The notes under the pieces: generated by a model
What the model was told of the DNA's origin: nothing
The model's input: only the letters and a program-made list of their open reading frames with translations
The model's database searches: none
Virus record (IMG/VR): IMGVR_UViG_3300044535_001062
Span: 1-64,000 of that record
DNA from: a virus
Length of the DNA stretch: 64,000 bases
Strand: one strand, 5' to 3'
Shown here: piece by piece, positions 1 through 64,000 of the stretch
Numbering within the stretch: position 1 is the first letter of the stretch
Layout: every line of letters starts with the position of its first letter
Made by a program: the position numbers and the translations under genes

Positions 1-120
1 TTACATTATTCATTGCAAACATCAATCACCTTATTTAATTTAAAAACAATTCAAAATGGCAGACGAAACTTTATTCGCAGACGGATTCGATGAGGCTATC
101 GTAGGTATAGACTACATCTC
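1..120. repeat. Terminal direct repeat marking circular closure (left copy)
   Basis: Bases 1-120 are identical to 63881-64000. This is what a circular or circularly permuted genome looks like when a linear window overruns its own start, giving a unit of about 63,880 bp. A true physical terminal repeat is possible, but the repeat starts inside one gene and ends inside the next with no packaging-type signal visible. Confidence 0.9.
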
Positions 121-319
121 TTATCCAGCACGTATCATTTACGACAAAAACAAAATGGTTGAAATCCTGGTTGAAAACGATGGCATGTCTCTAGAAGACG
201 CTATCGAGTATCTAGAATACAACACATGGTGTGCATATGTTGGAGAAGGAACACCTATCTTTGCTCACCTGGGAGGTAAATCCGATATCCAGGAACTGAT
301 CGAAATGCACGGTCTATGA
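56..319 (+). CDS. Conserved small acidic phage protein, unknown function
   Basis: An 87-aa acidic protein. Its central segment (about residues 12-70) has the pattern GIDYISYPARIIYD, then a helix with EDAIEYLEYN, then AYVGEGTPIF, which recalls a small uncharacterised protein common in phages of Bacteroidota. No catalytic motif is seen. The stop codon overlaps the start of the next gene (ATGA at 316-319), so the two are translationally coupled. The leader is A-rich with no Shine-Dalgarno sequence. Confidence 0.85.
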   Translation: MADETLFADGFDEAIVGIDYISYPARIIYDKNKMVEILVENDGMSLEDAIEYLEYNTWCAYVGEGTPIFAHLGGKSDIQELIEMHGL

Positions 320-456
320 CATTAGAAGCAACTACAAGAAGCAAACAGTATTGTCCCACTTGTAAAAAAGAAACAATGCACACACCCAAGTTAGGACTTG
401 CAGTTAATAATAAAAGGTTGTGCGAAGTATGTAGAGCAGTAAATGAAGTAAAATGA
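316..456 (+). CDS. 46-aa putative zinc-ribbon protein
   Basis: A 46-aa protein with two CxxC pairs (CPTC at residues 13-16 and CEVC at about 36-39) separated by roughly 20 residues, the spacing of a small zinc ribbon or knuckle. It starts on the ATGA overlap with the upstream gene, and its own stop overlaps another tiny reading frame at 453. The function is unknown; a transcription or nucleic-acid binding role is only inferred from the fold. Confidence 0.65.
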   Translation: MTLEATTRSKQYCPTCKKETMHTPKLGLAVNNKRLCEVCRAVNEVK

Positions 457-533
457 AAATACTCTTGACCATAGTTATATACGAGATAATCAAAACAGCA
501 GCCATGCATTTGTGGTATAAAACAATAAGATAA
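453..533 (+). CDS. 26-aa hydrophobic mini-protein (tentative)
   Basis: A very short frame starting on the ATGA overlap with the zinc-ribbon gene. It begins with a hydrophobic stretch (KILLTIVIYEII) and ends Lys/Arg-rich. Only the tight coupling to its neighbours supports it. Confidence 0.3.
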   Translation: MKILLTIVIYEIIKTAAMHLWYKTIR

Positions 534-537
534 AACA

Positions 538-711
538 ATGAACAAACGCAAGTCATATTTATACGAACGTAATACCAGGGAAGCAATCAAAAGAGAACGC
601 AAGCTTCTGGTTGCCTTTCTCAAAATAAACTCTCCTCGCATAAGACAGCTGTTCAAAGAGATCGAATTGATGTCAACCCGGGAAAAACGCTACATTAGCA
701 TAATGTTGTAA
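538..711 (+). CDS. 57-aa highly basic protein, unknown function
   Basis: A 57-aa Lys/Arg-rich helical protein (many K, R and E residues, with a RERKLLVAFLKI segment) starting 4 nt after the preceding tiny frame. It could be a small nucleic-acid binding protein, but no family is recognised. It is the last gene of this short operon before the structured non-coding stretch at 712-860. Confidence 0.55.
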   Translation: MNKRKSYLYERNTREAIKRERKLLVAFLKINSPRIRQLFKEIELMSTREKRYISIML

Positions 712-767
712 ATTACATTTACCTAATGATAATTATATTTACACATTGTAAAGATATAGCAGAAAGA

Positions 768-844
768 TCGGTATCCTCCCGGTGGATAGTATCCATCGGC
801 CAGCAATCCTAAACTTGTTAATACCGAGAGTTAAGTGGGTTGCT
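768..844 (+). ncRNA. Putative structured RNA with possible pseudoknot
   Basis: Three helices can be drawn by eye. One is a 9-bp hairpin at 779-787/791-799 (one G-T pair, loop AGT). The second is TCGGTAT at 768-774 pairing with ATACCGA at 821-827. The third is AGCAATCC at 802-809 pairing with GGGTTGCT at 837-844 (one T-G pair). The second and third cross each other, so together they make a pseudoknot. The segment contains no reading frame and lies just upstream of the 29-aa membrane peptide at 861. It could be a leader element, a free ncRNA or chance; no known riboswitch class is recognised. Confidence 0.4.
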
Positions 845-860
845 TCTAATAATACTGATA

Positions 861-950
861 ATGGAGAATGATATCGTACTCGGATTCGGGCTGTTCTTTA
901 CCTACGTAGCCGTCCTATTCTTTATATGGGCCTATGTGAAGGACAGGTAA
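861..950 (+). CDS. 29-aa single-pass membrane peptide
   Basis: The peptide is almost entirely one transmembrane helix (about residues 5-25, with FGLFFTYVAVLFFIWAYV) followed by a short charged tail, VKDR. It resembles the tiny membrane proteins phages often carry among early genes. The function is unknown. It lies directly after the structured 768-844 segment. Confidence 0.5.
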   Translation: MENDIVLGFGLFFTYVAVLFFIWAYVKDR

Positions 951-2059
951 CATATATCTAGCCTATATAATTGCTGCACCCCCTGCAACAAATGGCCCCC
1001 CTATTCATTGAACCCCCCGGCTTACTTTTTTGTAAGTTATCTTTCTGTAACACGATCCCTGGAAAATAATGTTCGTGCGAGGGCTGGAGCTTTACGTAGC
1101 GAAAATCTTTCCGCCCGCCCGCAAAAAAACACCCCCGGGCATGCGTCTGGCCTCCCGGCAAGTTCGGAGAACTTGTCGGAGGCTCGTAAGCGTGTCGCAA
1201 AATAAAATTCGAACTTCCCCTCTGGGGAATAACGGCCTTTATAGCCACTTCACAAACATTTGTTGGTGTACTTTGTGCCCTTTGGGCAGAGAAAAGGGCT
1301 TGAAATTTATTTCAAAGGGCTGAAAGCCAACGAAACCAAAGGTTTCAAGGTAGAAAAATGTTCATGTGTTTGATGCAATCAAACACCTCCAAACAACCTC
1401 AAAATATTGTCGATTTTAGTTGACAAAAAAAGCATTGTTCTTTAGAACAAACGCCAAAAAGCTCATACTCAAATACATAAGTATTTGAGAGGGCGATTTG
1501 CTGACCGAACCTCGCACGCCCGTCCGCCAGTTTTTCTGGAAAGAAAAACTTTTGCGGAGACGGAGGGATGTGGCCACGCTACCCCTACGTACGTGCACGC
1601 ATTTCCTACCGCACATTTAATCTTTTTTTTAAAAAAATTTTACGTAGTAAAATATTTTTAAGGTGGCCTATTAAAAACTTGTAGACCAAACTGCCCTATA
1701 ACTTTGTGCTGTCGATTTGCCAAAAACGACTCACGATTTCGGCAGACGACAAACGTTCTTTCCCACACCGAGACTACACCACTGCAGGATACGGCAAAGC
1801 CGCTGTGAAGCGTTCTATCCGAAGTGATTGCCATCACTAAACAGAGTTTAGTCGGGTTCTTTGACATACATTTCCCTTCGGGAACAAGGGAAATTTGGGG
1901 CACTCCTTCGAGGATTGATGTAATCAATGCCAACAGTGCAATCTGTGATACCTTTGGTATCTGTTCTTATCCCTTGGGATAAGTTATCATCAGCGAAGTG
2001 AACCATAAGAAAGCAAACGAAGTTTGGTCTGACACCACAGGCTAAATTTATTTAGCCAT
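951..2059. other. 1.1-kb gene-free region packed with stem-loops
   Basis: I find no convincing gene on either strand. The frames present (for example 1069-1323 plus, 1416-1616 minus, 1658-1933 minus) show no family resemblance and are interrupted by hairpins. Perfect stem-loops include a 14-bp stem with one bulge at 1151-1182, TGCCC/GGGCA at 1276-1288, a 6-bp stem at 1300-1315, GAAACC/GGTTTC at 1332-1346, 9-bp stems at 1366-1386 and 1468-1489, a nested pair at 1523-1558, GATACC/GGTATC at 1947-1961, an 8-bp stem at 1966-1983 and a 7-bp stem at 2040-2057. It is a candidate replication origin or structured transcript; neither is shown by the sequence alone. Confidence 0.6.
1151..1182. repeat. 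Large imperfect palindrome in the non-coding region
   Basis: The arms CCTCCCGGCAAGTTC and GAACTTGTCGGAGG flank a GGA loop and pair over 14 bp with one bulged C and one G-T pair. It is the longest hairpin of the non-coding region and is not followed by a T-run, so it is not an ordinary terminator. Confidence 0.75.
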
Positions 2060-2155
2060 GGTCGGTCTATGGTAGCCTTGCAGTGCTTGAGTCCGCTGCA
2101 TTAAATTTGGGACGGCTCCCAAAGGGAGAGGGTTCGATTCCCTCACCGACCACCA
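2060..2155 (+). tRNA. Divergent tRNA-like element with encoded CCA
   Basis: A perfect 7-bp acceptor stem (GGTCGGT at 2060-2066 with ACCGACC at 2145-2151), discriminator A, encoded CCA (2153-2155) and a canonical 5-bp T-arm (GAGGG/CCCTC, loop TTCGATT at 2133-2139) are visible. The rest is abnormal. Only 14 nt replace the D-arm, and the presumed anticodon hairpin (2079-2085/2094-2100) has an 8-nt loop, CTTGAGTC, that could be read as a Ser UGA anticodon. The variable region (2099-2127) is long, with a 7-bp hairpin. It could be an unusual class II tRNA, a decayed tRNA, or a tRNA-like structure. Confidence 0.45.
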
Positions 2156-2177
2156 AACCATTAACTAAAGTTAAACC

Positions 2178-2348
2178 ATGAAACTATTCTCATTCTTCAT
2201 CATGACACTTTGTGTCACCGCATCGTCAATGTCGTTGATTAATCATTTTGATAAATCAACCGACCAATCTGTGCTACTCGTGATTCTTTGTCACTTTGTG
2301 ACAATTGTTACAATCGGCACTATTTCCTCAAACGTAGTCGAAGACTAA
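2178..2348 (+). CDS. 56-aa small membrane protein
   Basis: Two hydrophobic helices are visible (about residues 3-21 and 32-50), separated by a polar loop, with an acidic C-terminus (VVED). The function is unknown. Its coding sequence carries several of the regional hairpins, for example GACACTTTGTGTC and TGTCACTTTGTGACA. Confidence 0.5.
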   Translation: MKLFSFFIMTLCVTASSMSLINHFDKSTDQSVLLVILCHFVTIVTIGTISSNVVED

Positions 2349-2388
2349 TCCATTCAACCAACAAACCAATTTTTAATACTTAAAAATC

Positions 2389-3111
2389 ATGACAACCAAA
2401 AACATCACCACCGCTGAAGCTATTATAGCTTCAATCTCAGACATGAAAGTTTCAAGCCAAAAGGCTTACATCACCAAAAACATTAATCAGCAAGCTGATT
2501 ACATTAAAACTATCGAAGATAAGTTTTACAACCGAAAGTGGAAGCACTACTATGGTGAACCTCTTAATGAAGAGGTTATCCTTAACGAAATTGCTCAACT
2601 CGAAGAGTTGGTAGGTGCTAAGGCTCTCCTTAACGGAGAGGACTGGCAAAAGGTATCCGCTAAGAAGTCAGCTAAAGCTGTGAAGTCGAAAGCTGTGGTA
2701 TCTGAAACCCCAAAGCCTACGGCTTCAGAAACGGCACTTGCCGAATTGACGAAGTCAATGACAAACCTCACCTCTCAACTCACAGAGTTGACCAAGGTAG
2801 TTGTAAAGAATTCAGTCGACATTGCTTCTATTCAGAAGCAAATTGAAACAATCAATCAGCCCAAAGTTACTAAAGTAACTACACCTGTACGAAAGTCTCA
2901 GCCAAAGGCTGTTGCCTCAAAGAAAGCCGAAATTATCGAAGATAAGCCGGCAATCAAGAAAACAAGCAAGTCTTTGCTTGAGGAATTGTTCGGTTCTTTC
3001 AGAACCGTGAAAGCCGACAAGCCAAAATCAACCAAGCCAAGCCGTAAGGAATATAATCCTTACGGCAACAGCTACAAAGCAAAGAAAATGGCTTACATGG
3101 AAGTTCGTTAA
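2389..3111 (+). CDS. 240-aa Lys/Ala-rich coiled-coil protein, unknown function
   Basis: The N-terminal third (residues 1-90) is helical and charged. A low-complexity Lys/Ala/Val linker follows (about 91-125), then a heptad-like coiled-coil segment (about 125-165, with TKSMTNLTSQLTELTK). The C-terminal tail is Lys/Pro-rich and ends NPYGNSYKAKKMAYMEVR. No enzyme motif is present; a structural or DNA-associated role is inferred only from composition. The gene is one of the densest in short perfect hairpins (2415, 2484, 2558, 2596, 2624, 2775, 2822, 2865, 2963, 2991). Confidence 0.75.
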   Translation: MTTKNITTAEAIIASISDMKVSSQKAYITKNINQQADYIKTIEDKFYNRKWKHYYGEPLNEEVILNEIAQLEELVGAKALLNGEDWQKVSAKKSAKAVKSKAVVSETPKPTASETALAELTKSMTNLTSQLTELTKVVVKNSVDIASIQKQIETINQPKVTKVTTPVRKSQPKAVASKKAEIIEDKPAIKKTSKSLLEELFGSFRTVKADKPKSTKPSRKEYNPYGNSYKAKKMAYMEVR

Positions 3112-3150
3112 TTGTAAACAATTAAAATCACCACTAATCAACACAACAAA

Positions 3151-3234
3151 ATGGAATTTTGTATCTTTTTCGGAACCATCTCATTCATCACCATAACGAT
3201 TTTATCGTTAGCAACTTACTTTATCGAGAAATAA
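3151..3234 (+). CDS. 27-aa single-pass membrane peptide
   Basis: One hydrophobic helix spans nearly the whole peptide, which ends FIEK. The leader before the ATG is A-rich. It resembles the peptide at 861-950 in size and layout but not in sequence. Function unknown. Confidence 0.4.
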   Translation: MEFCIFFGTISFITITILSLATYFIEK

Positions 3235-3238
3235 ATCT

Positions 3239-3358
3239 ATGATTACACTATGCATCATGCCCTCTTTCAGAGGGACTACAATCGAGACATTCAAAGCTTT
3301 GCTTACTTGTCTTGCAATCGACAGCACTTATCTTTTACCCATGTTTAACATCATCTAA
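3239..3358 (+). CDS. 39-aa hypothetical protein (tentative)
   Basis: A short frame beginning 4 nt after the preceding stop and ending 4 nt before the next start, so it fits the tight operon spacing. It is moderately hydrophobic (FKALLTCLAI). It contains the hairpin CCCTCT/AGAGGG at 3260-3274. No family is recognised. Confidence 0.35.
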   Translation: MITLCIMPSFRGTTIETFKALLTCLAIDSTYLLPMFNII

Positions 3359-3362
3359 AATC

Positions 3363-3584
3363 ATGCAAAAACACATCCTACATTTTGACGAGTCTAAAGA
3401 CTTGCTAGTCAGCTACACAATCGAACAAACCGATGAAATCGCTGCTTACACAGAGTATCTAGTGACGTTATACGTCAATGGCGAAGAAACTTTCAGCGAA
3501 AAAGTCCTTTCCGAGGATATGGACTTTGCCCATCGTCATGCTGAAACAATGTACGAAGGCTATAAAGAGTATATCAAATCATGA
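3363..3584 (+). CDS. 73-aa hypothetical protein
   Basis: A small mixed alpha/beta protein beginning MQKHILHFDESKDLLVSY. I take the ATG at 3363, which follows the A-rich leader; a longer frame from 3312 would overlap the preceding gene. The stop overlaps the next start (ATGA). Function unknown. Confidence 0.65.
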   Translation: MQKHILHFDESKDLLVSYTIEQTDEIAAYTEYLVTLYVNGEETFSEKVLSEDMDFAHRHAETMYEGYKEYIKS

Positions 3585-3823
3585 AATCAGAAAAAGAAAA
3601 ACAACTAGAGCATCGCCTTGCAATGGTCAGTGATGACTTGCAATGTATCCGAAGATTTATCTTCGAGAATGGCTTAGCGAAAACCTTTGCAAAGCCGACA
3701 GATGAATGCGATGAATGTTGGACTCACTTAGTGAACATTGAAATCGCCTGCTGTTTATCTAGTGACGAGTCACTATCCTGGAAACCATTCAACAAATTAA
3801 AACAACCAAATCAATCGAGATGA
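3581..3823 (+). CDS. 80-aa hypothetical protein with Cys pair
   Basis: A charged helical N-terminus (SEKEKQLEHRLAMVSDDL) is followed by CDECWTH and a later CC pair, which might bind metal but does not match a known motif. It is coupled by ATGA overlaps to both neighbours (3581 and 3820), indicating one operon with the GP88-like gene. Confidence 0.6.
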   Translation: MKSEKEKQLEHRLAMVSDDLQCIRRFIFENGLAKTFAKPTDECDECWTHLVNIEIACCLSSDESLSWKPFNKLKQPNQSR

Positions 3824-4536
3824 AAAACGTAGTTTTTAGACAAGGTGATACAATCACCCTAGTTACCTTTGGTAAAACTAGTAATGAAAAAATCGCTGAC
3901 AACAATGAGATTGTTGCTCAGACATTTCACTTCAGCCGGGAACAATACGACATTGCCCTTGGCAAAACAACCATGAAAGAATTTTTCTCTCATGATGCTA
4001 AGGTATGTTTCGATTGTCCCTTTGCTGTAAGCAATGGTGCAAAACTTACGGCTTGTTATACTCATAAGCCAATGCAATACATGGGGTTTCGTTCCTCTCT
4101 CAGAGCTATAGCAAAACGATATCCCGAGTATGGTCTGATACCTCAGCTTTCAGCTGATATCGTAGCTGATATTGTCAGCAAATGCTACGGACTTTATGTC
4201 CGCTTTGGTAGCTATGGTGAGCCAACGCTTATGCCGATTGACGTAGTCAAATCTATTGTAGCTGTAGCGAAATCATGGACAGGCTATACTCATCAATGGA
4301 TGAGTCGTCCAGAATATGCACCATATTTCATGGCATCAACACATAGTGTTGGACAAGAAATGCTTGCAAGACAGCTCGGATATCGTAGCTTTGTTGTTAC
4401 CAACAAATCAATCGATGGACTTGTTTCCTGCCCTGCCTCTAAAGAGATGGGCTTCAAATCAAATTGCTCGAAGTGCGGACTCTGTTCGGGGACTGAGGGC
4501 AAAGGTAAAAAATCAATCGTAATACTAGAACATTAA
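3820..4536 (+). CDS. GP88-like Cys-rich phage protein
   Basis: 238 aa. An N-terminal Cys cluster (CFDCPF, then CYTHK at about residues 66-86), a central RFGSYGEPTLMPID segment (about 128-141) and a C-terminal CSKCGLCSG cluster (about 215-223) match the general layout of the phage GP88/DUF7227-type family, whose biochemical role is unknown. The Cys groups suggest a bound metal or iron-sulfur cluster, which is inference. The start is on the ATGA overlap with the previous gene. The coding sequence is full of regional stem-loops, such as the 7-bp one at 4288-4305. Confidence 0.6.
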   Translation: MKNVVFRQGDTITLVTFGKTSNEKIADNNEIVAQTFHFSREQYDIALGKTTMKEFFSHDAKVCFDCPFAVSNGAKLTACYTHKPMQYMGFRSSLRAIAKRYPEYGLIPQLSADIVADIVSKCYGLYVRFGSYGEPTLMPIDVVKSIVAVAKSWTGYTHQWMSRPEYAPYFMASTHSVGQEMLARQLGYRSFVVTNKSIDGLVSCPASKEMGFKSNCSKCGLCSGTEGKGKKSIVILEH

Positions 4537-4571
4537 TCAATCAATCAACAAACTAAATTAAATTTAAAATC

Positions 4572-4931
4572 ATGGGACGTTATTATTCTGGAGACATCGA
4601 AGGCAAATTTTGGTTTGCCGTACAATCAAGTAACGCTGCTGATAGATTTGGCAGCACAGGTTATGAACCTAACTACATCGAATACAATTTCTATGAAGAG
4701 CACCTCGAAGGTGTTCAAGCCGAACTCAAACGTATCGAAGATAAACTCGGTGACAAGATGCTAATCATCACTAAATTCTTTGAAGAGAACAATGGGTACA
4801 CCGATGAGAAACTTGAGAAGGCAGGTATCACACGTTCAGAACTCAGCGAATACGCTGACTATGGCTTAGGTAAGAAGATAGAACAATGCATAATCGACAA
4901 TGGTCAGTGCGAATTCACAGCAGAACTTTAA
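4572..4931 (+). CDS. Conserved phage protein starting MGRYYSGDIEGKF
   Basis: 119 aa. The N-terminus MGRYYSGDIEGKFWFAVQSS followed by ADRFG is a signature I recall from an uncharacterised family shared by many phages and some bacterial genomes. The C-terminal half is helical and acidic. No catalytic motif is recognised. The gene at 8319 also begins MG-x-YYS but is otherwise different. Confidence 0.7.
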   Translation: MGRYYSGDIEGKFWFAVQSSNAADRFGSTGYEPNYIEYNFYEEHLEGVQAELKRIEDKLGDKMLIITKFFEENNGYTDEKLEKAGITRSELSEYADYGLGKKIEQCIIDNGQCEFTAEL

Positions 4932-4941
4932 TCAATATCAT

Positions 4942-5205
4942 ATGAAAAACGTAAACGTAACACAGCTCAGAGTCAGAATTCTTAACAAGTTTATTGTTAA
5001 GATTGTAGTCAGCGAAAGAACTCCCGAAGGATATTTTCTCGGCACAGCCGAGTTATCCCTTTGGGATGCTGTCGGTAATCGTCAGCTATCATGGAAACTT
5101 ATTCACTTAAGTGACCTTGAGTCAGAAGTTCGGGAAATGCTTCCCGAAAATATGTTCGATGACGCTTGGCAAGTAATCAAAATCACAATGGACACTAACT
5201 ATTAA
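4942..5205 (+). CDS. 87-aa hypothetical protein
   Basis: A beta-rich small protein beginning MKNVNVTQLRVRILNKF. I choose the ATG at 4942, just after the upstream stop; a longer frame from 4900 would run into the previous gene. Its coding sequence holds three strong hairpins (4981-5001, 5038-5052, 5129-5148). Function unknown. Confidence 0.65.
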   Translation: MKNVNVTQLRVRILNKFIVKIVVSERTPEGYFLGTAELSLWDAVGNRQLSWKLIHLSDLESEVREMLPENMFDDAWQVIKITMDTNY

Positions 5206-5216
5206 TAATTAAAATC

Positions 5217-5516
5217 ATGACAAAGACAGAAGTAATCAAGACAATCGACAGCGGCAAGATATTCTCTTGCCGTTTTGTAAAACAAAATGGTGAGGCTAGA
5301 TACCTCAAGGGACGAACCGGTGTACGTAAGTACACTGACAAGGACGGCAATGTTCACGAAGTGAAAGGCGTGGGCATGAAGTTCAAGCCAAAAGAACTGG
5401 GCTATCGTGTAGTCTTTGACTTGGGGCTCAGAGAATATCGCATGATCAATTGTATTACAATTGTCGAGTTCAACAAACAATCAGTAGGAAACTTTTTTAT
5501 TCAAGAAACAAAATGA
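5217..5516 (+). CDS. SH3-like beta-barrel phage protein
   Basis: 99 aa. The order GKIFSCRFVKQNGEARYLKGRTGV (residues 12-35), a charged turn, then VVFDLGLREYRMINCITIVEF (about 66-86) is the layout of the short SH3 beta-barrel-fold proteins found in phages and Bacteroidota. Their role is not established. The stop overlaps the start of the next gene at 5513. An 8-bp hairpin lies at 5252-5272. Confidence 0.65.
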   Translation: MTKTEVIKTIDSGKIFSCRFVKQNGEARYLKGRTGVRKYTDKDGNVHEVKGVGMKFKPKELGYRVVFDLGLREYRMINCITIVEFNKQSVGNFFIQETK

Positions 5517-5767
5517 AAACAAGACAATCAATTATTGTAGCTGACGTATCGAGAGATGAACTGAACAGCTCTGTAGACTGGTTCTTTAGAACCTGTGCCG
5601 TAGAATGGCACGATGCAACTAACCTTGCCGAGTGTATCTGTCGCATACAAGATGTCGAAGACATACCCGAGTATGATGATTGGCTGAGTCCCGAGGACAG
5701 AGAGTTAATTCAGAAATTAAAAGCATCCGTAAACGAAATCAACGCATGTTACATCAGAATAATTTAA
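5513..5767 (+). CDS. 84-aa acidic hypothetical protein
   Basis: Begins MKTRQSIIVADVSRDEL at the ATG overlapping the upstream stop. Acidic and predicted helical, with a C-terminal helix LSPEDRELIQKLKASVNEI. No family recognised. Confidence 0.6.
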   Translation: MKTRQSIIVADVSRDELNSSVDWFFRTCAVEWHDATNLAECICRIQDVEDIPEYDDWLSPEDRELIQKLKASVNEINACYIRII

Positions 5768-5775
5768 TTAAAACC

Positions 5776-6048
5776 ATGACACAATTCGAAATCGCACAAC
5801 AACAAGTTAAAGAAAAGCAATTGCAAGCACCAAAGGTGATGACTGAGGGTAAACAAATCGACTACTTCGGCTATCAATTAGCCGTACACCATTTCAATCT
5901 TAAGCTAATGGCTAAGGGTATGGCATGCCGAGGTATCAAGTTTACTGACATCAAGAAGTACTACGGACTTAAAGGTAAGTCCGCTGCTGATTGCTTAGGA
6001 CAATTCGAAGAGATATTCAACAACTACAAACAAAACTTAAACAACTAA
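5776..6048 (+). CDS. 90-aa hypothetical protein
   Basis: A small helical protein. Residues 52-75 (ACRGIKFTDIKKYYGLKGKSAA) look like a small helical DNA- or protein-binding motif but match nothing I recognise. Translation probably starts at the ATG at 5776, after AAAACC. Hairpin GGACTTA/TAAGTCC lies at 5965-5982. Confidence 0.6.
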   Translation: MTQFEIAQQQVKEKQLQAPKVMTEGKQIDYFGYQLAVHHFNLKLMAKGMACRGIKFTDIKKYYGLKGKSAADCLGQFEEIFNNYKQNLNN

Positions 6049-6052
6049 TCAC

Positions 6053-6325
6053 ATGAAAAAAGTAACCATCACCACAAGAGCAGTTTATCACAAAACTGCA
6101 TCGGTAATTGTCAATGTTCCCGAACACATCCCTGCTGACAAAGTACATGATTGGATTTTGGAGAACGACCATCTATTCACAGCTGTGTTAGACAAGAAGT
6201 TAAGCGAAGCACCCTACGAATTCGGCTTCGGTCTCAGCGATGATATGGATTGGATAGACCAAGAGTCGGAGTCACGATACGATGTAGAAGAAAACGGAAA
6301 GATTACATACGGAGGACATTTATAA
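6053..6325 (+). CDS. 90-aa hypothetical protein
   Basis: An N-terminal beta strand pair (VTITTRAVYHKTASVIVNVP), a helix, and an acidic tail (DDMDWIDQESE). It resembles small phage early proteins of unknown role. It starts 4 nt after the previous stop. Confidence 0.6.
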   Translation: MKKVTITTRAVYHKTASVIVNVPEHIPADKVHDWILENDHLFTAVLDKKLSEAPYEFGFGLSDDMDWIDQESESRYDVEENGKITYGGHL

Positions 6326-6341
6326 ATCAATAAACAAAAAC

Positions 6342-6914
6342 ATGGCAAACAATTGTTATAACTTCGCAACCTTAATTGGTTCTAAAGAAAGTTTAGACTT
6401 GCTCGAAGCAAGACTAATCGAAAGCAAAAAAGAAACACGGCACTTGTGGTATGGTTCGTTTCACGAAGTCCTCAACATCCCTATCGTAGAGGATGGCAAT
6501 TCATATCAAGACTTCGGCACACGATGGTTCGATGCGGAATGGAATAGAGAGTCCGATACCGAAGCTACGCTGAGTGGCGATAGTGCATGGTCTCCACCAT
6601 CCGAGTTCTTTCGCAAGTTGTCTGATGTATATCAGTTGACTATCGAGTCAGAATACGAAGAACCAGGATGTGACTTTGCCGGATACTACAATTGTAGTAA
6701 TGGAGATGTACTTCGAGACGATACCTATTCGTACAATATGTTTCATCTACTAGAGAACAGGCAATACTTTATGGAAAAAATATGCGATGACATAACCTAT
6801 GGTACATACGATGACTATGAAGACTTTGCCAAGCACAATAAAGACGTAGCTGAAGTTCTGACACCCCAAGAAATAAATCAAATCAAAGAACATTTTAACG
6901 AAGTAAAACCATGA
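6342..6914 (+). CDS. YubB ferredoxin-like / DUF1281-type protein
   Basis: 190 aa. The protein opens MANNCYNFATLIGS and carries FGTRWFDAEW (about residues 58-67), SGDSAWSPPSEFFRKLS (about 78-94) and the pattern EEPGCDFAGYY (about 105-115). These are the hallmark steps of the Api92/YubB ferredoxin-fold family (DUF1281), common on plasmids and phages and of unknown biochemical role. Its stop overlaps the next gene's start at 6911. Confidence 0.7.
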   Translation: MANNCYNFATLIGSKESLDLLEARLIESKKETRHLWYGSFHEVLNIPIVEDGNSYQDFGTRWFDAEWNRESDTEATLSGDSAWSPPSEFFRKLSDVYQLTIESEYEEPGCDFAGYYNCSNGDVLRDDTYSYNMFHLLENRQYFMEKICDDITYGTYDDYEDFAKHNKDVAEVLTPQEINQIKEHFNEVKP

Positions 6915-7078
6915 ACATCAAAACTAAATTCAACCGACACAACTACACAACTTACTTGTTACCAAGTATCTTACTCGTTCACAATCCAAAAACACACTAC
7001 GCTGCTGAAGATTATGTTTTGCACATCAACTTTCTCAAGCTACATTGGTACATTGTATTCACACTAAACAAAAAATAA
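6911..7078 (+). CDS. 55-aa hypothetical protein
   Basis: A short basic protein overlapping the preceding stop (ATGA). A hydrophobic segment near the C-terminus (INFLKLHWYIVFTL) could be membrane-associated. No family recognised. Confidence 0.5.
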   Translation: MNIKTKFNRHNYTTYLLPSILLVHNPKTHYAAEDYVLHINFLKLHWYIVFTLNKK

Positions 7079-7080
7079 CC

Positions 7081-7302
7081 ATGAGCAACAAACAATTCAA
7101 TGTGCTGAGCCCCGATGGGTTCAGCATTCATCACACCGAGACTTACGACACTATCGAACAAGCCTACGAAGCTATGCAACAATGGGCAAAGCGATACAAA
7201 TCCCAAGGCTACTATAGTAGCGTTAAGTACGGCAGAATTCCAATCCAAGACTTGGACAGATACTGCAGTATCACCATCGAAATAGAAACAATCAACAACT
7301 AA
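7081..7302 (+). CDS. 73-aa hypothetical protein
   Basis: Begins MSNKQFNVLSPDGFSIHH and has YDTIEQAYEAMQQWAKRYKSQGYYSS (residues 22-47), a strand-helix-strand arrangement seen in many small phage and plasmid proteins. I use the ATG at 7081 rather than an upstream frame start at 7045. A 9-bp hairpin occupies codons 8-15 (7104-7125). Confidence 0.65.
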   Translation: MSNKQFNVLSPDGFSIHHTETYDTIEQAYEAMQQWAKRYKSQGYYSSVKYGRIPIQDLDRYCSITIEIETINN

Positions 7303-7323
7303 CAATCACCAATCAAAAAAACC

Positions 7324-7920
7324 ATGAGTTATCTAACAACATTTCAAGACCAATTACTTTCTGACTTAGAAAAAGAATTCAAAAAGTTAAATTCCACTAC
7401 ACCTGCCAAGGGTAAATTCACAATTGACTCTGTCAAAAAAGACATCGAGGAAACGGAAGCATTTAGAAAATCCATACTCGAACACAACAAAGCTATTGCA
7501 CAGCAATTGCGGATAGAGTACAACTCTCAATTGAATGAATTCAATCGTGAGTTCAGTCCGGTCAGTCTTGCTTTGCATTGGAGAAGAAGTTCATCCGGTG
7601 TTTCGAAGATGTTTGAAGACGAGCACGCTATGAAAAATCCTCACAGCGTAGACTTGGCTCTTTACTTTGAAGGAGAAGAAGATGTCAACCTACATAGACT
7701 TCATGTATTGTACGATTATGAAGCAGTAGAAATCAAAACATCTTGCGATTTAATTCGTGGTTTCAAGATCAAAGGATTGCTATGGTCTACTCGTGGCTGG
7801 TTACATAGACACGATGCTGGTGGTTACTTCTACAAAACCTTGGACAACTTTATTCAAGGCACTGAAAACTTCCAACGAACCATCACGCTGAAGTATAAAC
7901 AATTAACAAGCAATGGATAA
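7324..7920 (+). CDS. 198-aa hypothetical protein
   Basis: The N-terminal half is a charged helix (about residues 1-75), probably a coiled coil. The C-terminal half is a beta-rich globular region with RSSSGVSKMFEDEHAMKNPH and a Trp/Gly/His-rich end. No known family. The end overlaps the next gene by 8 nt. A nested hairpin sits at 7522-7553. Confidence 0.65.
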   Translation: MSYLTTFQDQLLSDLEKEFKKLNSTTPAKGKFTIDSVKKDIEETEAFRKSILEHNKAIAQQLRIEYNSQLNEFNREFSPVSLALHWRRSSSGVSKMFEDEHAMKNPHSVDLALYFEGEEDVNLHRLHVLYDYEAVEIKTSCDLIRGFKIKGLLWSTRGWLHRHDAGGYFYKTLDNFIQGTENFQRTITLKYKQLTSNG

Positions 7921-8146
7921 CTACACAATCCAATCCAATCAGTACATACCATTTCGGGCCGAGAGAGGTCCGAGTGGTATGCCACTGGCTACTACATATT
8001 ATTATGTAGCCAACAAAAGTGGACAACCTATCAATAAGAATACGTGCAAGTCGTATCGTGGCAAACAGATGAAGGAATACGCTTTCCGTTCTGAGGCCGA
8101 AGCACAAATATTTTTAAACTATTTAAATCAACATGCAAACAATTAA
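7913..8146 (+). CDS. 77-aa hypothetical protein
   Basis: A small protein beginning MDNYTIQSNQYIPFRAERGP, with a C-terminal helix (EAEAQIFLNYLNQHA). It overlaps both neighbours, by 8 nt upstream and 14 nt downstream. Unknown function. Confidence 0.6.
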   Translation: MDNYTIQSNQYIPFRAERGPSGMPLATTYYYVANKSGQPINKNTCKSYRGKQMKEYAFRSEAEAQIFLNYLNQHANN

Positions 8147-8291
8147 AGTTATCCCATCTAGTATTGTCAAGGCTTACGTCTCTGGCATCATCGAGTGGAG
8201 AGTGTACCACGAGGGACAAATCATTGGTCGCTTTCCTACGGAAGAATGGGCAAAGAAATTTTACGAACTAATCACAAATCAAAACAACTAA
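8133..8291 (+). CDS. 52-aa hypothetical protein
   Basis: A short frame starting inside the end of the previous gene. The sequence (VIPSSIVKAYVSGIIEWRVY, then a helix TEEWAKKFYELI) reads as a folded strand-helix protein like its neighbour at 7081, so I consider it real. Function unknown. Confidence 0.5.
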   Translation: MQTIKVIPSSIVKAYVSGIIEWRVYHEGQIIGRFPTEEWAKKFYELITNQNN

Positions 8292-8318
8292 AATCTAAAC
8301 AATTAAAAATTAAAAATC

Positions 8319-8840
8319 ATGGGACAGTATTATTCAGCAGCCATTTTAGGCGACAACAAAAAGACAGTTAAACATCACGTTTACAGCTGGGATTTCAACA
8401 GCGGTTTGAAACTAATGGAACATTCATGGATGGAGAACCCATTCATCAAATCATTTGAAACCCTTATCCACAACAATCCTCAGCGAGTAGTGTGGGCAGG
8501 GGATTATGCAGATGAATGCCCCGGTAACAAAACGAATGTCTATACAAGATGCACCGACAAAAACAAAGTAAAGCCCGAGCGTGAATTATCTTTGCTCGAC
8601 TCCTTGTATGTTATCAATCACAGCACCAAGCAGTACATAGACAAAACAAAAGTACCTAGTCGTGATGGATGGCGTATTCATCCTCTACCTCTCATGACCT
8701 GTGAAGGTAACGGCAGAGGCGGTGGTGACTATCGTGGTGACGAAGATTATGTCGGCTCCTGGGCAAGAGATATAATCTCTGTATCGAATGTAGTTCCAGA
8801 GGGATATTCTGAATTTATGTTTAACTTAGTAGAACAATAA
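8319..8840 (+). CDS. Conserved phage/plasmid protein starting MGQYYSAAILG
   Basis: 173 aa. The stretch GLKLMEHSWMENPF (residues 31-44) followed by RVVWAGDYADECPG (about 56-69) recalls an uncharacterised family on phages and plasmids of Bacteroidota. There is a His/Asp/Trp-rich core but no assigned activity. It is followed after 1 nt by the gene at 8842. A DnaA-box-like TTATCCACA occurs inside it at 8464-8472. Confidence 0.65.
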   Translation: MGQYYSAAILGDNKKTVKHHVYSWDFNSGLKLMEHSWMENPFIKSFETLIHNNPQRVVWAGDYADECPGNKTNVYTRCTDKNKVKPERELSLLDSLYVINHSTKQYIDKTKVPSRDGWRIHPLPLMTCEGNGRGGGDYRGDEDYVGSWARDIISVSNVVPEGYSEFMFNLVEQ

Positions 8841-8841
8841 A

Positions 8842-9243
8842 ATGACTTACAAAATTTATCGCAACCTACACAAGAACTGCTTCAGTGTACTGAAGTATGA
8901 CAAAGAAAAGAAAGGCTATCGTCTATATGCACATGTAGACGAAGCCATCATCTCTCAAGTTAAGACCAAGGTATCTGAGGCCGGGCGCAGGCGTGTACTC
9001 AAAGAGAAGTCAAAGAATGTGCATGCATTTATCCTAGCCAAGTCTTTCTCTCCGCTTCCCTCCGGTACGTTACGTCTGATACCCCACGCTTATCCGGATG
9101 AATTGTACTACAATCCGTACACCACGGAACAATTTATCAACAAGACAAGCGGTCAACCTGTCATGTCTCATACATCGGTGATGCTCAAGAACTGCAAGGC
9201 TTACCTCATTAATGAGACCACCGCAATTGACATCGTAATTTAA
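8842..9243 (+). CDS. 133-aa conserved hypothetical protein
   Basis: A basic N-terminal domain (about 1-65, including SEAGRRRVLKEKSKNVHAF) and a C-terminal part with YYNPYTTEQFINK, then QPVMSHTSVMLKN. The pattern recalls an uncharacterised phage/plasmid family. The hairpin CTTCAG/CTGAAG lies near the start. It is the last gene before the promoter at 9261. Confidence 0.6.
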   Translation: MTYKIYRNLHKNCFSVLKYDKEKKGYRLYAHVDEAIISQVKTKVSEAGRRRVLKEKSKNVHAFILAKSFSPLPSGTLRLIPHAYPDELYYNPYTTEQFINKTSGQPVMSHTSVMLKNCKAYLINETTAIDIVI

Positions 9244-9260
9244 AATAACTTCAAAATAAA

Positions 9261-9294
9261 TTTGGAAAAATCAAAACAATCACATTACATTTGC
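9261..9294 (+). promoter_or_regulatory. Bacteroidota-type promoter upstream of the DUF932 gene
   Basis: The -33 element TTTG (9261-9264) and the -7 element TACATTTGC (9286-9294) are separated by 21 nt, matching the TTTG / TAnnTTTG consensus of Bacteroidota. It points at the gene at 9347, leaving a leader of about 45 nt. Confidence 0.75.
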
Positions 9295-9346
9295 AACAAT
9301 CAAAAAACTAACTCACAAAAAATTAACAACTAAAAATCAAACTATC

Positions 9347-10321
9347 ATGAACAATCAAAATTTTATCAACAACAACTCAACAAACATTTCAAACATGGAC
9401 GCACCTGCACTGAACCTCGACAACTTCGAGCGCACAATGAACCTGCTCGAAAGAACCGGACTTAACTGGGAAGTTAAGAAAGAACAATTCACTCATCCCT
9501 CGGGATTGATTACTGACCACTATGGTATCTTCCGATACAACCACGGAGACGATGCACCAATCGATTGTCTCGGCTCTGTTAAAGGTAGGTACACACCATT
9601 CCAAAACTGGGAACTTGCCGACACCGTTGTCCGTGCCACTGAGGGTATCGGTATCTCTACTGACAGAGGTGGTACTTTGAATGGCGGTCGCAAAGTTTAT
9701 CTACAAGCTCAGTTACCGGAAGAGTACATCGGCAAGTCCGGTGTTAAACGCTGGGTGACTTGTATCAACAGCCACGATGGTAGCAGTTCAATTGCTTTTG
9801 GTTCTACCAACACCGTTATCGTATGTCAGAATACTTTCTATCGTGCTTACAAAGAAAGCAGTAGGTTCAGACATACTGAGTCAGCCAAGTCACGTATCGA
9901 GATTGCTATTCAGCAATTCCAAGAAACGATTAACGCTGACAAGAATCTGTTCGATACATTCAAACGGATGAGCGAGATGGCTCCGAACGAAAATCTTGTA
10001 CAGGCTGTATTGAATTCTATCTTCGAGGTAGATGTACTCAAGACAAAAGCCGATGACATATCTACTCGTAAAGCTAATCAGATGAAGCAATTCGCTTCAG
10101 CGTACAGCATTGAGAGAGACTTGGAAGGCGATACTGTATGGGGACTATTCAACGCAGTAACTCGTTACACTAACCACATCACAGCCCCTGCTACAGCAGA
10201 CCGCAAGACGGACTACATCATGGGTGGTACTGGTTACACGATAAACAATAATGCATATGATACTATCATGGCATGGATTGAAGAGAACACACAACCTAAG
10301 TCAATGGTTTTTGTTGGTTAA
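9347..10321 (+). CDS. DUF932 phage/plasmid-like protein
   Basis: 324 aa. It matches the DUF932 (TIGR03299, phage/plasmid-like) family by length and by its typical steps: GRYTPFQNWELADTV (about residues 81-95), GRKVYLQAQLPEE (about 109-121), a CINSHDGSSSIAFGSTNTVIVCQNT core (about 139-163) and a C-terminal RYTNHITAPATADRKTDYIM region. The family is often carried by phages and plasmids and its activity is not established. The gene has its own promoter (9261-9294) and a strong terminator (10334), so it forms a single-gene unit, perhaps highly expressed. Confidence 0.8.
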   Translation: MNNQNFINNNSTNISNMDAPALNLDNFERTMNLLERTGLNWEVKKEQFTHPSGLITDHYGIFRYNHGDDAPIDCLGSVKGRYTPFQNWELADTVVRATEGIGISTDRGGTLNGGRKVYLQAQLPEEYIGKSGVKRWVTCINSHDGSSSIAFGSTNTVIVCQNTFYRAYKESSRFRHTESAKSRIEIAIQQFQETINADKNLFDTFKRMSEMAPNENLVQAVLNSIFEVDVLKTKADDISTRKANQMKQFASAYSIERDLEGDTVWGLFNAVTRYTNHITAPATADRKTDYIMGGTGYTINNNAYDTIMAWIEENTQPKSMVFVG

Positions 10322-10333
10322 GTTTCATGGTTT

Positions 10334-10366
10334 GCACCTCGGTCTTTGACCGGGGTGCTTTTAATT
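10334..10366 (+). terminator. Rho-independent terminator after the DUF932 gene
   Basis: An 11-bp stem (GCACCTCGGTC with GACCGGGGTGC, one T-G pair, loop TTT) spans 10334-10358 and is followed by TTTTAATTTT. It marks the end of the hairpin-rich early block. Confidence 0.9.
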
Positions 10367-10401
10367 TTACATCATCACAATTCACAATTAATAAATAAAA
10401 A

Positions 10402-10605
10402 ATGGAATCAGAAAAAACATTCAGAGAAATGTCAGAGCATGACCGCAGGGTTTACATCACGCACATTATTCAACACATCCTTTACGATGACACAAAGTTC
10501 AAACAGATGACTAATCTGTTAGATGACTGGCGTATGATAGATGTCCTAAAAGAAGGTGTATCAATAGTTAATATCGGTGCATATGGAGATCAACTTGACG
10601 CTTGA
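10402..10605 (+). CDS. 67-aa acidic hypothetical protein
   Basis: A helical, charged small protein (ESEKTFREMSEHDRRVYITHI). The first gene after the terminator. It overlaps the next tiny frame at 10583. No family recognised. Confidence 0.6.
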   Translation: MESEKTFREMSEHDRRVYITHIIQHILYDDTKFKQMTNLLDDWRMIDVLKEGVSIVNIGAYGDQLDA

Positions 10606-10672
10606 AGATTATCTTCTGTCACTGGGAGTAGCTACAATTTGTGCACAAATATTTTACCACTTAATAAATTAA
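10583..10672 (+). CDS. 29-aa hydrophobic peptide (tentative)
   Basis: It overlaps the end of the preceding gene and ends one base before the next ATG. It has a hydrophobic core (YLLSLGVATICAQIFYHLI) able to cross a membrane. Supported only by tight spacing. Confidence 0.35.
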   Translation: MEINLTLEDYLLSLGVATICAQIFYHLIN

Positions 10673-10673
10673 T

Positions 10674-11027
10674 ATGACACAGCAAACTAATCAACTGGAC
10701 CTATTCGAAGGAATCTCAAACAAGGACTTCTTAGAGTATCACAAAACAAATCCACATCTCTACGCAGCATTCAAGAACATTGCGCTTAGAGCCATTCGTC
10801 TCGGCTTCACCAACTATGGTGCAAAGGGTATCTTTGAAATCATACGATGGGAGAGAGCAGAGAGAGGCGATGGTGAATTCAAAATCAATAACAACTTCGC
10901 ACCATTATTCACCCGGTTGTTTGAGAACGAATTCCCTCAGCACAAGAACTTCTTTCGGAAGAGAAGAAGTGCGTTCGATAACTACGTGGACAAAGATTCA
11001 AGGAAGGAGTCCGAAGTCACCTCATAA
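10674..11027 (+). CDS. Conserved hypothetical protein (FEIIRWERA motif)
   Basis: 117 aa. The pattern FLEYHKTNPHLYAAFKNIAL, then GAKGIFEIIRWERA, then KINNNFAPLFTRLFENEFPQ resembles a family frequent in prophages and phages of Bacteroidota and other bacteria. No activity is assigned. The stop touches the following small frames. Confidence 0.65.
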   Translation: MTQQTNQLDLFEGISNKDFLEYHKTNPHLYAAFKNIALRAIRLGFTNYGAKGIFEIIRWERAERGDGEFKINNNFAPLFTRLFENEFPQHKNFFRKRRSAFDNYVDKDSRKESEVTS

Positions 11028-11069
11028 TGCTTGCATTAATCTTGTCCTTAAACTATATTGCACAACGAA

Positions 11070-11237
11070 ATGTGTATGCTAAATGTTTATGACATATTCG
11101 AGATGGAGTCCGACATGGGAACCGTGTTCATGGTTGTCCTGTCGGACAACATTCTCGGGTATTTTGATACTCTTGCAGAAGCTGATGAGTGTGTAAAGAA
11201 GCATATGGACCAAGCCGAAAAAATTTTATTAAATTAA
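11070..11237 (+). CDS. 55-aa hypothetical protein
   Basis: A compact acidic protein (beta hairpin VFMVVLSDNILGYF, then helix TLAEADECVKKHMDQAEKIL). The helix and strand pattern support a real small domain. A shorter 21-aa frame at 11027 overlaps it and is less convincing. Confidence 0.5.
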   Translation: MCMLNVYDIFEMESDMGTVFMVVLSDNILGYFDTLAEADECVKKHMDQAEKILLN

Positions 11238-11240
11238 ACT

Positions 11241-11339
11241 ATGACAACATTTCTAATTGACTGCGGTCCGATTACCTATTACGGAACTGCCACCCATTTC
11301 GCCATCATAAGATACGTTTATACTCATGAATACAATTAA
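11241..11339 (+). CDS. 32-aa hypothetical peptide (tentative)
   Basis: A short frame (TTFLIDCGPITYYGTATHFA) between two better supported small genes, overlapping the next start by 14 nt. No family recognised. Confidence 0.3.
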   Translation: MTTFLIDCGPITYYGTATHFAIIRYVYTHEYN

Positions 11340-11481
11340 AAAACTCAGACAAAAAATCAAAAACATTCTCGAATGCATCGATGGTCCTGTTGACGAACAA
11401 TACCTAGACTATGTCTTGGTGGGCATTGTTTATTTCATTCTCTGGGCTATCATCTACATCATCTACCGGGTAGTATTGTAA
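11326..11481 (+). CDS. 51-aa single-pass membrane protein
   Basis: A basic N-terminus (NTIKKLRQKIKNIL) and one strong transmembrane helix (about residues 29-50, VLVGIVYFILWAIIYIIYRVV). The function is unknown. Confidence 0.5.
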   Translation: MNTIKKLRQKIKNILECIDGPVDEQYLDYVLVGIVYFILWAIIYIIYRVVL

Positions 11482-11490
11482 TCTTCAATC

Positions 11491-11868
11491 ATGCGAGCCA
11501 AAAAGAAACGAGACAACATCGTGCAGTTGTTTGTTCGTGTCAGTGCTAATCAACGACAGGCGATAAAAGACATCAGTAAGCAATACGGATACCAGGAGTA
11601 TAGTCTATTGATTGATGATTTGGTTCACACGTATCTCAACAAGAGAAGACGAAGTATGGCAAAATCTATCAAAGAATTTACTGAAGGAGATACAGCAGTT
11701 CCGGTACAATTGGCACGAAACAACCACAGGTTATTGGTGGAGTATTGTTCAGCAATGGACTTGTCTCCAAACATCGTAATACTTTCGATAATACGAGAGT
11801 CAGTTAACAAAATCAACAAACTTAAAAACACTAACATTGAAAATGAAGACACAACCGAATCAGATTAA
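11491..11868 (+). CDS. Putative ribbon-helix-helix-type DNA-binding protein
   Basis: 125 aa. The N-terminal region (residues 1-52) reads as a basic strand (NIVQLFVRVS), then two helices (ANQRQAIKDISKQYG and YSLLIDDLVHTYLNK), as in ribbon-helix-helix regulators. A second similar strand-helix unit appears at about 70-115. The gene overlaps the recombinase that follows by 26 nt, so it may regulate or act with it; that link is inferred from position only. Confidence 0.45.
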   Translation: MRAKKKRDNIVQLFVRVSANQRQAIKDISKQYGYQEYSLLIDDLVHTYLNKRRRSMAKSIKEFTEGDTAVPVQLARNNHRLLVEYCSAMDLSPNIVILSIIRESVNKINKLKNTNIENEDTTESD

Positions 11869-17042: not shown

Positions 17043-17555
17043 ATGATAACCATAAAAGAATACACCGAAGAAGTAGTCAAGACGATTACTAAAAAACTAA
17101 AACTTGATTCGTTTCAGAGACTGGAATTACTCAAAGAAGTTCGCAACTTGGAAAACTACAAAATCTATCGCAACAAAATCGTCAGCCCTACGGTCAAGTA
17201 CAATCCAAACAAGAACCGCAAAAAATCCTCACATATCAATATGTATTCGTTAATCGAAGCCGACAGAAAGCTTATGGAAGATGCGGTGCGAATCAGTCAT
17301 CTGGACATTGATAAATATGTGATCAATAGCCGGGAAGGTGAATACGTAGATTGTCGCAGAATGATTATGGCTGTGATGAGAATACACCTTGGTTACTCTC
17401 TGAGTAAAGTCGGAAAAATATTTAACAAGGATCACTCGAGTATCATCCACAATGTTAAAAAGCACAATGACTTTTTGATTACCGATAAAGTATACTCAAG
17501 GAGATTTCAAAAATATTTGGATTGCGTTAAAGAAAGCAGTCCGGTTTTCATGTGA
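17043..17555 (+). CDS. DnaA domain IV-like DNA-binding protein
   Basis: 170 aa. The C-terminal third (about residues 100-160, VDCRRMIMAVMRIHLGYSLS, then GKIFNKDHSSIIHNVKKH) is a DnaA domain IV-type helix-turn-helix including the DHSS signature loop, but the AAA+ ATPase domain is absent. It probably binds DnaA boxes, perhaps at the phage origin or as a competitor of host DnaA. The single TTATCCACA seen is at 8464. It is the last gene of the plus arm, ending at the convergent terminator. Confidence 0.8.
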   Translation: MITIKEYTEEVVKTITKKLKLDSFQRLELLKEVRNLENYKIYRNKIVSPTVKYNPNKNRKKSSHINMYSLIEADRKLMEDAVRISHLDIDKYVINSREGEYVDCRRMIMAVMRIHLGYSLSKVGKIFNKDHSSIIHNVKKHNDFLITDKVYSRRFQKYLDCVKESSPVFM

Positions 17556-54540: not shown

Positions 54541-54561
54541 TGTTGTAATCTCCTTTTAAAA

Positions 54562-55923: not shown

Positions 55924-55935
55924 TGTTTAATTTGT

Positions 55936-63918: not shown

Positions 63919-64000
63919 TTTAAAAACAATTCAAAATGGCAGACGAAACTTTATTCGCAGACGGATTCGATGAGGCTATCGTAGGTATAGACTACATCTC
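63881..64000. repeat. Terminal direct repeat (right copy)
   Basis: Exact second copy of bases 1-120. It contains the last codons of the 181-aa gene (stop at 63916-63918) and the first 65 nt of the 87-aa gene that starts at 56 in the left copy. Confidence 0.9.
63936..64000 (+). CDS. Partial copy of the 87-aa gene (repeat of 56-120)
   Basis: The first 65 nt of the gene that starts at 56 are repeated here because of the circular overlap. It is not a second gene. Confidence 0.85.
   Translation, partial: MADETLFADGFDEAIVGIDYI

Follow-up and report, generated by a model that had tools for sequence, protein, structure and literature searches.

A dense field of short hairpins beside the probable replication origin of crAss-like phages, possibly maintained by selection on DNA folding

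The window analysed here is a 64,000-nucleotide stretch comprising nearly all of the 64,054-base IMG/VR record IMGVR_UViG_3300044535_001062. It carries a field of about 100 tiny perfect hairpins, genic and intergenic, in the first ~5 kilobases (kb) beside a probable replication origin. Such fields occur across a group of crAss-like water phages, where selection on the folding of the DNA appears to have kept them. We give slightly better than an even chance to the reading that selection maintains this field of short hairpin-forming DNA, that it is anchored on a conserved element in a probable origin leader, and that it is selected as DNA rather than as RNA. The evidence consists of a hairpin excess present in six genomes, a sharp start of the field in the four genomes profiled, a common loop rule (Y-NNN-R), covariation of paired bases, no preference for G.U pairs, equal folding of sense and antisense strands, and stem conservation at synonymous sites of the first gene.

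Bases 1–120 of the window are identical to bases 63881–64000, and the near-identical contig L003 spans this junction. The genome is therefore complete and circular, at ~63.9 kb, although the record is classed as linear. A protein of 1,569 amino acids (aa) at 45493–50202 matches the Crassvirus muzzle family PF25731 (E 2e-44), which identifies the phage as crAss-like; its other genes include those for primase-helicase, DNA polymerase and an exonuclease of the YqaJ/RecE type. Among named phages, none matches the window closely at the DNA level. To gather relatives, proteins encoded in the hairpin region were used as queries against viral contigs. Besides L003, the search retrieved a sister phage (L004, L006, L015 and L067) and five more distant crAss-like phages with ~65–75% DNA identity: L063 (G001), L069 (G002), L070 (G003), L064 (G004) and L077 (G005).

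The hairpin field and its boundary

Hairpin density in the early region exceeds both kinds of shuffled control. Stems of at least 7 base pairs (bp) with loops of 2–8 nucleotides (nt) outnumber those in dinucleotide shuffles 15-fold at 1–2 kb and at 2–4 kb, 10.5-fold at 4–6 kb and ~3.8-fold at 6–10 kb. Outside 1–10 kb, the ratio is mostly ~1–2 (range 0–4.5). Codon-preserving shuffles, applied to stems of at least 6 bp, give 37 observed against 7.9 expected (standard deviation, sd, 2.7) in the genes at 2.3–6.05 kb, where two short genes were shuffled out of frame with small effect. The corresponding counts are 14 against 5.5 at 6.05–10.4 kb, 12 against 7.5 at 10.4–17.6 kb, and 69 against 52.7 (sd 6.0) in the late genes. 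The field proper thus spans ~1.15–6.1 kb, followed by a weak tail to 10.1 kb, and chance or base composition is ruled out as its cause. About one third of the bases at 1149–3320 lie inside hairpins, and the densest coding hairpins belong to the first large gene, with 13 stems of at least 6 bp against 1.6 expected from codon-preserving shuffles. An Rfam scan of window positions 1–12000 returned no match at E<=1.

These counts bear on an earlier note, made from the letters of the window alone, which had described a block saturated with stem-loops from 1.15 to 10.1 kb, densest up to 6 kb. The excess in the dense part is larger than that note stated (10–15-fold for stems of at least 7 bp) and persists under the codon-preserving shuffles that it had proposed. 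The lower density that it reported to 10.1 kb is borne out, with only a weak tail past ~6.1 kb, and the late arm, as it observed, has no comparable density. All 11 of its listed stems are present, although the one given as 4981–5001 spans 4980–5002, with a 9-bp stem and a 5-nt loop. Its chance estimate was also sound, at 0.68 such stems per 8.95 kb under equal base use. Further stems of 8–10 bp, absent from its list, lie at 1870–1894, 2040–2057, 2369–2387, 3041–3066 (10 bp), 3108–3125 and 5964–5983.

The window and the five more distant phages each carry one hairpin-dense field at a homologous place, that of L077 being truncated by the contig end. A conserved non-coding element, aligned in the window, L069, L063, L064 and L070, marks the left edge (Table 1). 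In the four genomes profiled (the window, L063, L070 and L064), hairpin density leaps at this element from ~1 to 9–23 per kb, drops after ~2.5 kb, and then stays at ~4 per kb until ~10 kb. Two phages that share single genes (G006 and G007) showed no field on their contigs, which are shorter, and no comparable field was found in the first 50 kb of phi14:2 or of cr53_1.

Loop type, pairing and conservation of the stems

Loop statistics, pooled over five fields, reveal a common rule. Loops of 2–4 nt are enriched and those of 7–8 nt are not. Enrichment is greatest for 3-nt loops, which number 65 against 5.0 expected for 6-bp stems (13-fold) and 37 against 1.2 for 7-bp stems (31-fold). Inside the fields, 3-nt loops are closed by C-G in 141 cases, T-A in 75, G-C in 11 and A-T in 9. 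Outside them the counts are T-A 102, A-T 97, C-G 43 and G-C 42, with no pyrimidine/purine bias. The excess therefore consists almost solely of hairpins closed by a 5' pyrimidine and a 3' purine (Y-NNN-R). The lack of a consensus claimed earlier is thus true of the stems but not of loop length and closing pair, both of which are strongly biased. Among 139 3-nt loops, 37 are GNA and 23 are its complement TNC; this ratio of 1.6, compared with a background of 1.24, roughly follows the compositional bias between the strands and indicates no clear preference for either. Stem GC content beyond the closing pair is mostly ~0.3–0.4, modestly above expectation. The d(GNA) triloop with a C-G closing pair is a known stable DNA motif.

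The pairing itself follows Watson-Crick rules. Just outside perfect stems, G.T pairs occur 36 times (32.9 expected) and A.C pairs 47 times (44.3 expected). Stems with one internal mismatch contain G.T in 12 cases against 2.2, A.A in 9 against 2.5, and T.T in 7 against 1.6. Differences that alter one side of a pair in relatives comprise 49 G.U and 78 A.C, summed over comparisons that are not independent. Predicted RNA folding, measured as minimum free energy, is above that of shuffles, and the excess is the same for sense and antisense. Since G.U is not favoured and both strands fold equally, selection probably does not target RNA structure. A conserved mRNA structure would be expected to tolerate G.U and to be specific to the sense strand, and neither was found; covariation of paired bases was found, which cannot separate RNA from DNA pairing.

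Homologous stems covary at several places. The hairpin at 1215–1229 has counterparts in L069 (ttgccctAAagggcaa), in L063 and L064 (tgaccTTCggtca) and in L070 (tgaccTTTggtca). Two further stems of the window, cggttctTTCagaaccg and ttgcttctATTCagaagcaa, correspond to cggtacTTTTgtaccg and ttgctgtAATacagcaa in L069. Across the leader and first-gene start of L064, all 12 hairpins are intact in L063, where 74 of their pairs are unchanged, 5 show compensatory changes, none is broken and 1 is gapped. Identity between these two phages is 69% outside the 12 hairpins and 64% in the loops. Compensatory changes, for which the earlier note had advised a check, are thus present. A comparison of L064 with L065 was uninformative, as the sequences are too alike.

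Synonymous sites were compared among L063, L064 and L070, with stems chosen in one phage and codons compared between the two others, because picking perfect stems in a compared phage biases the result. In the first gene, where the amino acid is the same in both phages, the codons agree at 0.84 of stem sites and at 0.54 of other sites (P 1.3e-5, 6.1e-5 and 3.9e-4 in single comparisons). A cost to the protein is possible in the gene at 3820–4536, whose homologues in field-less phages hold 0–2 stems of at least 6 bp. Protein conservation is lower at its stem codons than at the others (0.50 vs 0.68), so either amino acids are sacrificed to the hairpins or the hairpins lie where that cost is least.

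Sister phage L015 and the window form a fine mosaic over 2155–6922, in which blocks of a few hundred bases alternate between 97–99% and 63–84% identity, which suggests that the early region recombines often. Inside the field, the divergent blocks carry 8.2 and 10.0 stems of at least 6 bp per kb in the two alleles, and the stems mostly differ between them. Past 6.1 kb, neither allele is dense in such blocks. As both alleles are dense with different stems, it is density that is kept rather than particular sequences. Inheritance of one ancestral stem set is insufficient for the same reason.

Origin-like features and neighbouring genes

The leader to the right of the boundary element shows several features of bacterial-type origins. 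In L063, L070 and L064, it holds two DnaA boxes 32–35 bp apart, located ~550–600 bp past the element. The pair is TTATCCACA and TTATTCACA in two of these phages and TTATCCACA and TTGTCCACA in the third, and the boxes flank a covarying hairpin (ttaccTATggtaa, ttaccTTTAggtaa, ttatccTTTaggataa). At the equivalent place in L069 (+529), short GC-rich repeats are followed by the most AT-rich 60-mer of that genome. In the same phage, about ten imperfect CRCAC-rich repeats stand at 3746–3878, directly 5' of the AT-richest 60 bases, an origin-like arrangement. Homologues of the DnaA domain IV-like protein (Table 1) occur in all five field-bearing relatives, hence in six of six phages with the window. 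Judging from the DnaA boxes, the AT-rich stretches and this protein, the leader is probably a replication origin.

Table 1. Features of the hairpin region and of the putative origin in the window
Feature	Position	Strand	Remarks
Conserved non-coding element	1071..1145	+	At sharp left edge of field; GTTYGTGYGAGnGnTGGAGnTT...CAAAAAAACACCCCC
Core hairpin field	1149..6100	.	Perfect 5-10 bp stems, 2-4-nt loops, ~1 per 50 bp
Hairpin-dense leader, probable origin region	1149..2388	+	One short open reading frame (ORF) only
Hairpin ttccccTCTggggaa	1215..1229	.	Position kept, pairs differ in relatives
AT-rich 60-mer, possible unwinding element	1616..1675	.	83% AT, in leader
First large gene	2389..3111	+	240 aa; no Pfam or PHROGs match
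Hairpin tgaagctaTTAtagcttca	2415..2433	.	aagccaTTCtggctt in sister phage L015: T-A pair replaced by C-G
Longest stem gccgtaaggaATATAAtccttacggc	3041..3066	.	10 bp, loop 6, within first gene
Gene, PHROG 2554	3820..4536	+	238 aa; 8 stems >=6 bp
Weak tail of field	6101..10100	.	From gene shuffles; ~4/kb plateau in relatives
DnaA domain IV-like protein	17043..17555	+	PF08299, E 6.5e-10; motif KDHSSIIHN; DnaA-box-binding fold

Several further elements deserve separate description. First-gene proteins rich in QPKVV are encoded at 4292–5227 in L063, 2578–3516 in L070 and 5524–6384 in L064. Each QPKVV is encoded by the palindrome CAACC-RAA-GGTTG, so that a protein repeat doubles as a hairpin repeat. 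A tRNA-like element (2059–2155 in the window, 4331–4410 in L069) ends in ...AGGGTTCGATTCCCTCACCGACCACCA and has an acceptor-like stem of 7 bp with compensatory changes in L069; it received no ARAGORN call and a weak Rfam tRNA-Sec score (19.1 bits, below the cut-off of 47). At 2687–2748, L069 also carries a tRNA-like gene that has acceptor, D and T arms but nearly lacks the anticodon arm; it scores 40.2 bits with the Rfam tRNA model, above gathering, and received no ARAGORN call. Between two genes of L069, the sequence at 5147–5197 resembles a minihelix of acceptor and T arm (ACCTAGG...GAGGGTTCGATTCCCTCACTAGGT).

No relative of the window's gene at 5217–5516 was found in bacterial genomes, and the early arm includes a serine recombinase/invertase-like gene at 11888–12553 (PHROG 95 and 125). 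The minus strand encodes a protein of 4,237 aa at 29901–42614, with no Pfam domain and no crAss RNA polymerase motif; its sole PHROG match, over a short stretch, is 9880 (unknown function). GC content reaches 46–47% at 54001–56000, compared with 39% for the rest of the genome, and a long antisense ORF of 363 aa at 54691–55782 overlaps a minus-strand gene.

Competing explanations and significance

Beyond the reading given at the outset lies a bolder proposal, to which we assign somewhat less than an even chance. It holds that the origin-linked mini-hairpin field is an undescribed genome feature. Selection for Watson-Crick pairs and for the loop type would maintain it throughout the phage group, acting on single-stranded or cruciform DNA at replication start and overriding synonymous codon freedom in the genes covered. 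As to the biochemical role of the hairpins, we infer that origin-proximal DNA may become single-stranded or negatively supercoiled at replication start, which would let them fold on the single strand or as cruciforms. Once folded, they could act as priming sites or start sites for complementary-strand synthesis, or as loading sites for a hairpin-binding protein, and they might keep the exposed, displaced strand folded. Template switching could be a mutational source of new stems. Among the causes that the earlier note had listed, sites on single-stranded DNA come nearest to the evidence, since the stems consist of Watson-Crick pairs, the two strands behave alike and the field lies on a leader with origin features.

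A number of observations weigh against maintenance by selection as origin-linked DNA. Outside the first gene, synonymous identity is 0.70 at stem sites and 0.63 at others (0.67 and 0.64 for stems of at least 6 bp), and in genes farther downstream the stems change position. In these codon comparisons, synonymous conservation of stems is clear in the first gene only; the comparison with homologous genes that the earlier note recommended thus shows stems kept there and positions shifting downstream. The leader of the window contains no exact DnaA box. Hairpins are spaced at random (coefficient of variation ~1), with no evident regular array. In L063, L064 and L070, a terminator-like hairpin seen in the sequence immediately precedes the boundary, so the leader may also start a transcription unit. 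An early transcription unit could just as well begin there, and a promoter-linked cause is possible; no Bacteroidetes-type promoter pattern was found near the boundary. Finally, GNRA RNA tetraloops share the C-G closing preference (PMC5815330), and the closing pair alone is therefore not decisive between DNA and RNA.

Mutation alone is an unlikely explanation, yet the most probable of the rivals. Fold-back or template switching by the polymerase close to the origin would repeatedly perfect near-palindromes, leaving hairpins as by-products and compensatory changes as the same repair. Such fold-back synthesis would suit a zone beside the origin in which stems are perfectly Watson-Crick paired and loops are minimal. 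Template switching creates and maintains perfect stems (PMC8794818), and two base pairs are enough for some polymerases to extend a self-paired 3' end (PMC11292364). The turnover of stem positions and the weaker protein conservation of stem codons in the gene at 3820–4536 also agree with it. A template-switch footprint was sought in 164 hairpins from five genomes against hairpin-lacking homologues. No one-arm footprint was found (mean arm difference 0.213, null 0.203, sd 0.013), nor was any bias between left and right arms, and a hint from gene 3820 alone that left arms are older was rejected on this basis. The homologues are distant and power is limited, so this result is evidence against mutation alone rather than proof. 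Moreover, neutral repair predicts that stems diverge at background level, whereas first-gene stems are conserved synonymously and their flanks vary more. Template switching, as suggested in the earlier note, may hence supply or repair stems, but it lacks its one-arm footprint and leaves the synonymous conservation unexplained.

Selection on RNA structure appears a little less probable still. Under this explanation, hairpins in early transcripts would resist host RNases, RNA-targeting clustered regularly interspaced short palindromic repeats (CRISPR) systems or toxins, or would slow ribosomes. The field does start just past a terminator-like hairpin in relatives and fades in the direction of transcription over same-strand genes, and the predicted RNA is more structured than shuffles. 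Nevertheless, G.U is not enriched at stem ends, nor inside stems much past A.A and T.T; single changes yield fewer G.U than A.C; antisense folds like sense; and loop sequences show little strand preference once composition is considered. The stem-end counts, the single changes and the equal antisense folding give no support to the earlier suggestion of RNA structure that withstands RNases or RNA-targeting defence.

Promoter hairpins for a virion RNA polymerase, like those of phage N4 but multiplied over the early region, are very improbable. The early promoters of N4 are small DNA hairpins with 3-nt loops and partly free Watson-Crick stems, confined to one early region in the leftmost, first-injected DNA and extruded by the negative supercoiling that they need (PMC4496689). 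Some crAss-like phages do carry virion RNA polymerases, as annotated in phi14:2. However, N4 has three promoters with conserved bases, whereas the field comprises ~100 hairpins, many intragenic and on both sides of gene boundaries, without flanking consensus; instead of conserved stem and loop bases, only the loop and closing-pair preference is common to them. In addition, neither the giant protein nor other late proteins contain the crAss-type DxDGD motif, and no RNA polymerase domain was detected among the large proteins scanned, which do not cover every ORF. Least probable of all is a small mobile palindrome family spread by repeated insertion, like repetitive extragenic palindromic (REP) or Rickettsia palindromic elements. 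One repeated unit does exist in relatives, caaccAAAggttg, which codes for QPKVV and is present many times over in the first genes of L063 and L070. Apart from this unit, no stem sequence is shared, and homologous stems covary at fixed positions. A repeat family is thus largely refuted, in agreement with the earlier note.

Other known systems resemble the field in part. The paired DnaA boxes of three relatives, the AT-rich stretches of the window and L069, and the DnaA domain-IV protein recall bacterial-type origins. We know of no origin adjoined by kilobases of hairpin-saturated coding DNA. The target hairpin or cruciform of phage diversity-generating retroelements (DGRs) likewise acts at the DNA level, with a stem that may vary if paired and a more constrained loop (PMC3240598). 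It is, however, a single GC-rich stem of 7–10 bp with a 4-nt GRNA loop, next to one variable repeat, whereas the field extends over several kilobases and is made up of stems with ordinary GC content and mostly 3-nt loops. Template-switch (quasipalindrome) mutagenesis yields perfect stems and paired compensatory changes (PMC8794818, PMC7202029), but the field differs in its missing one-arm footprint and its synonymously conserved stems. Genome-wide surveys that used arms of at least 10 bp report an enrichment of perfect inverted repeats in viral genomes, mostly in intergenic DNA (PMC13155455), whereas the field is dense in coding DNA and has shorter arms. On the features tested, we could not place it with N4 promoter hairpins, DGR target hairpins or template-switch products, and no description of such a hairpin field was found in the open-access literature searched.

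If the reading of selection on DNA folding is correct, protein-coding DNA can be strongly selected, across several kilobases, for the secondary structure that it forms itself, and such selection would be set by genome position rather than by any single gene. The field would offer a natural test bed for the roles of DNA hairpins at replication origins in vivo, for the tradeoff between selection on DNA structure and on protein sequence, and for the extent to which palindromes arise by template switching. Another lesson would be that synonymous conservation and covariation need not imply RNA structure.

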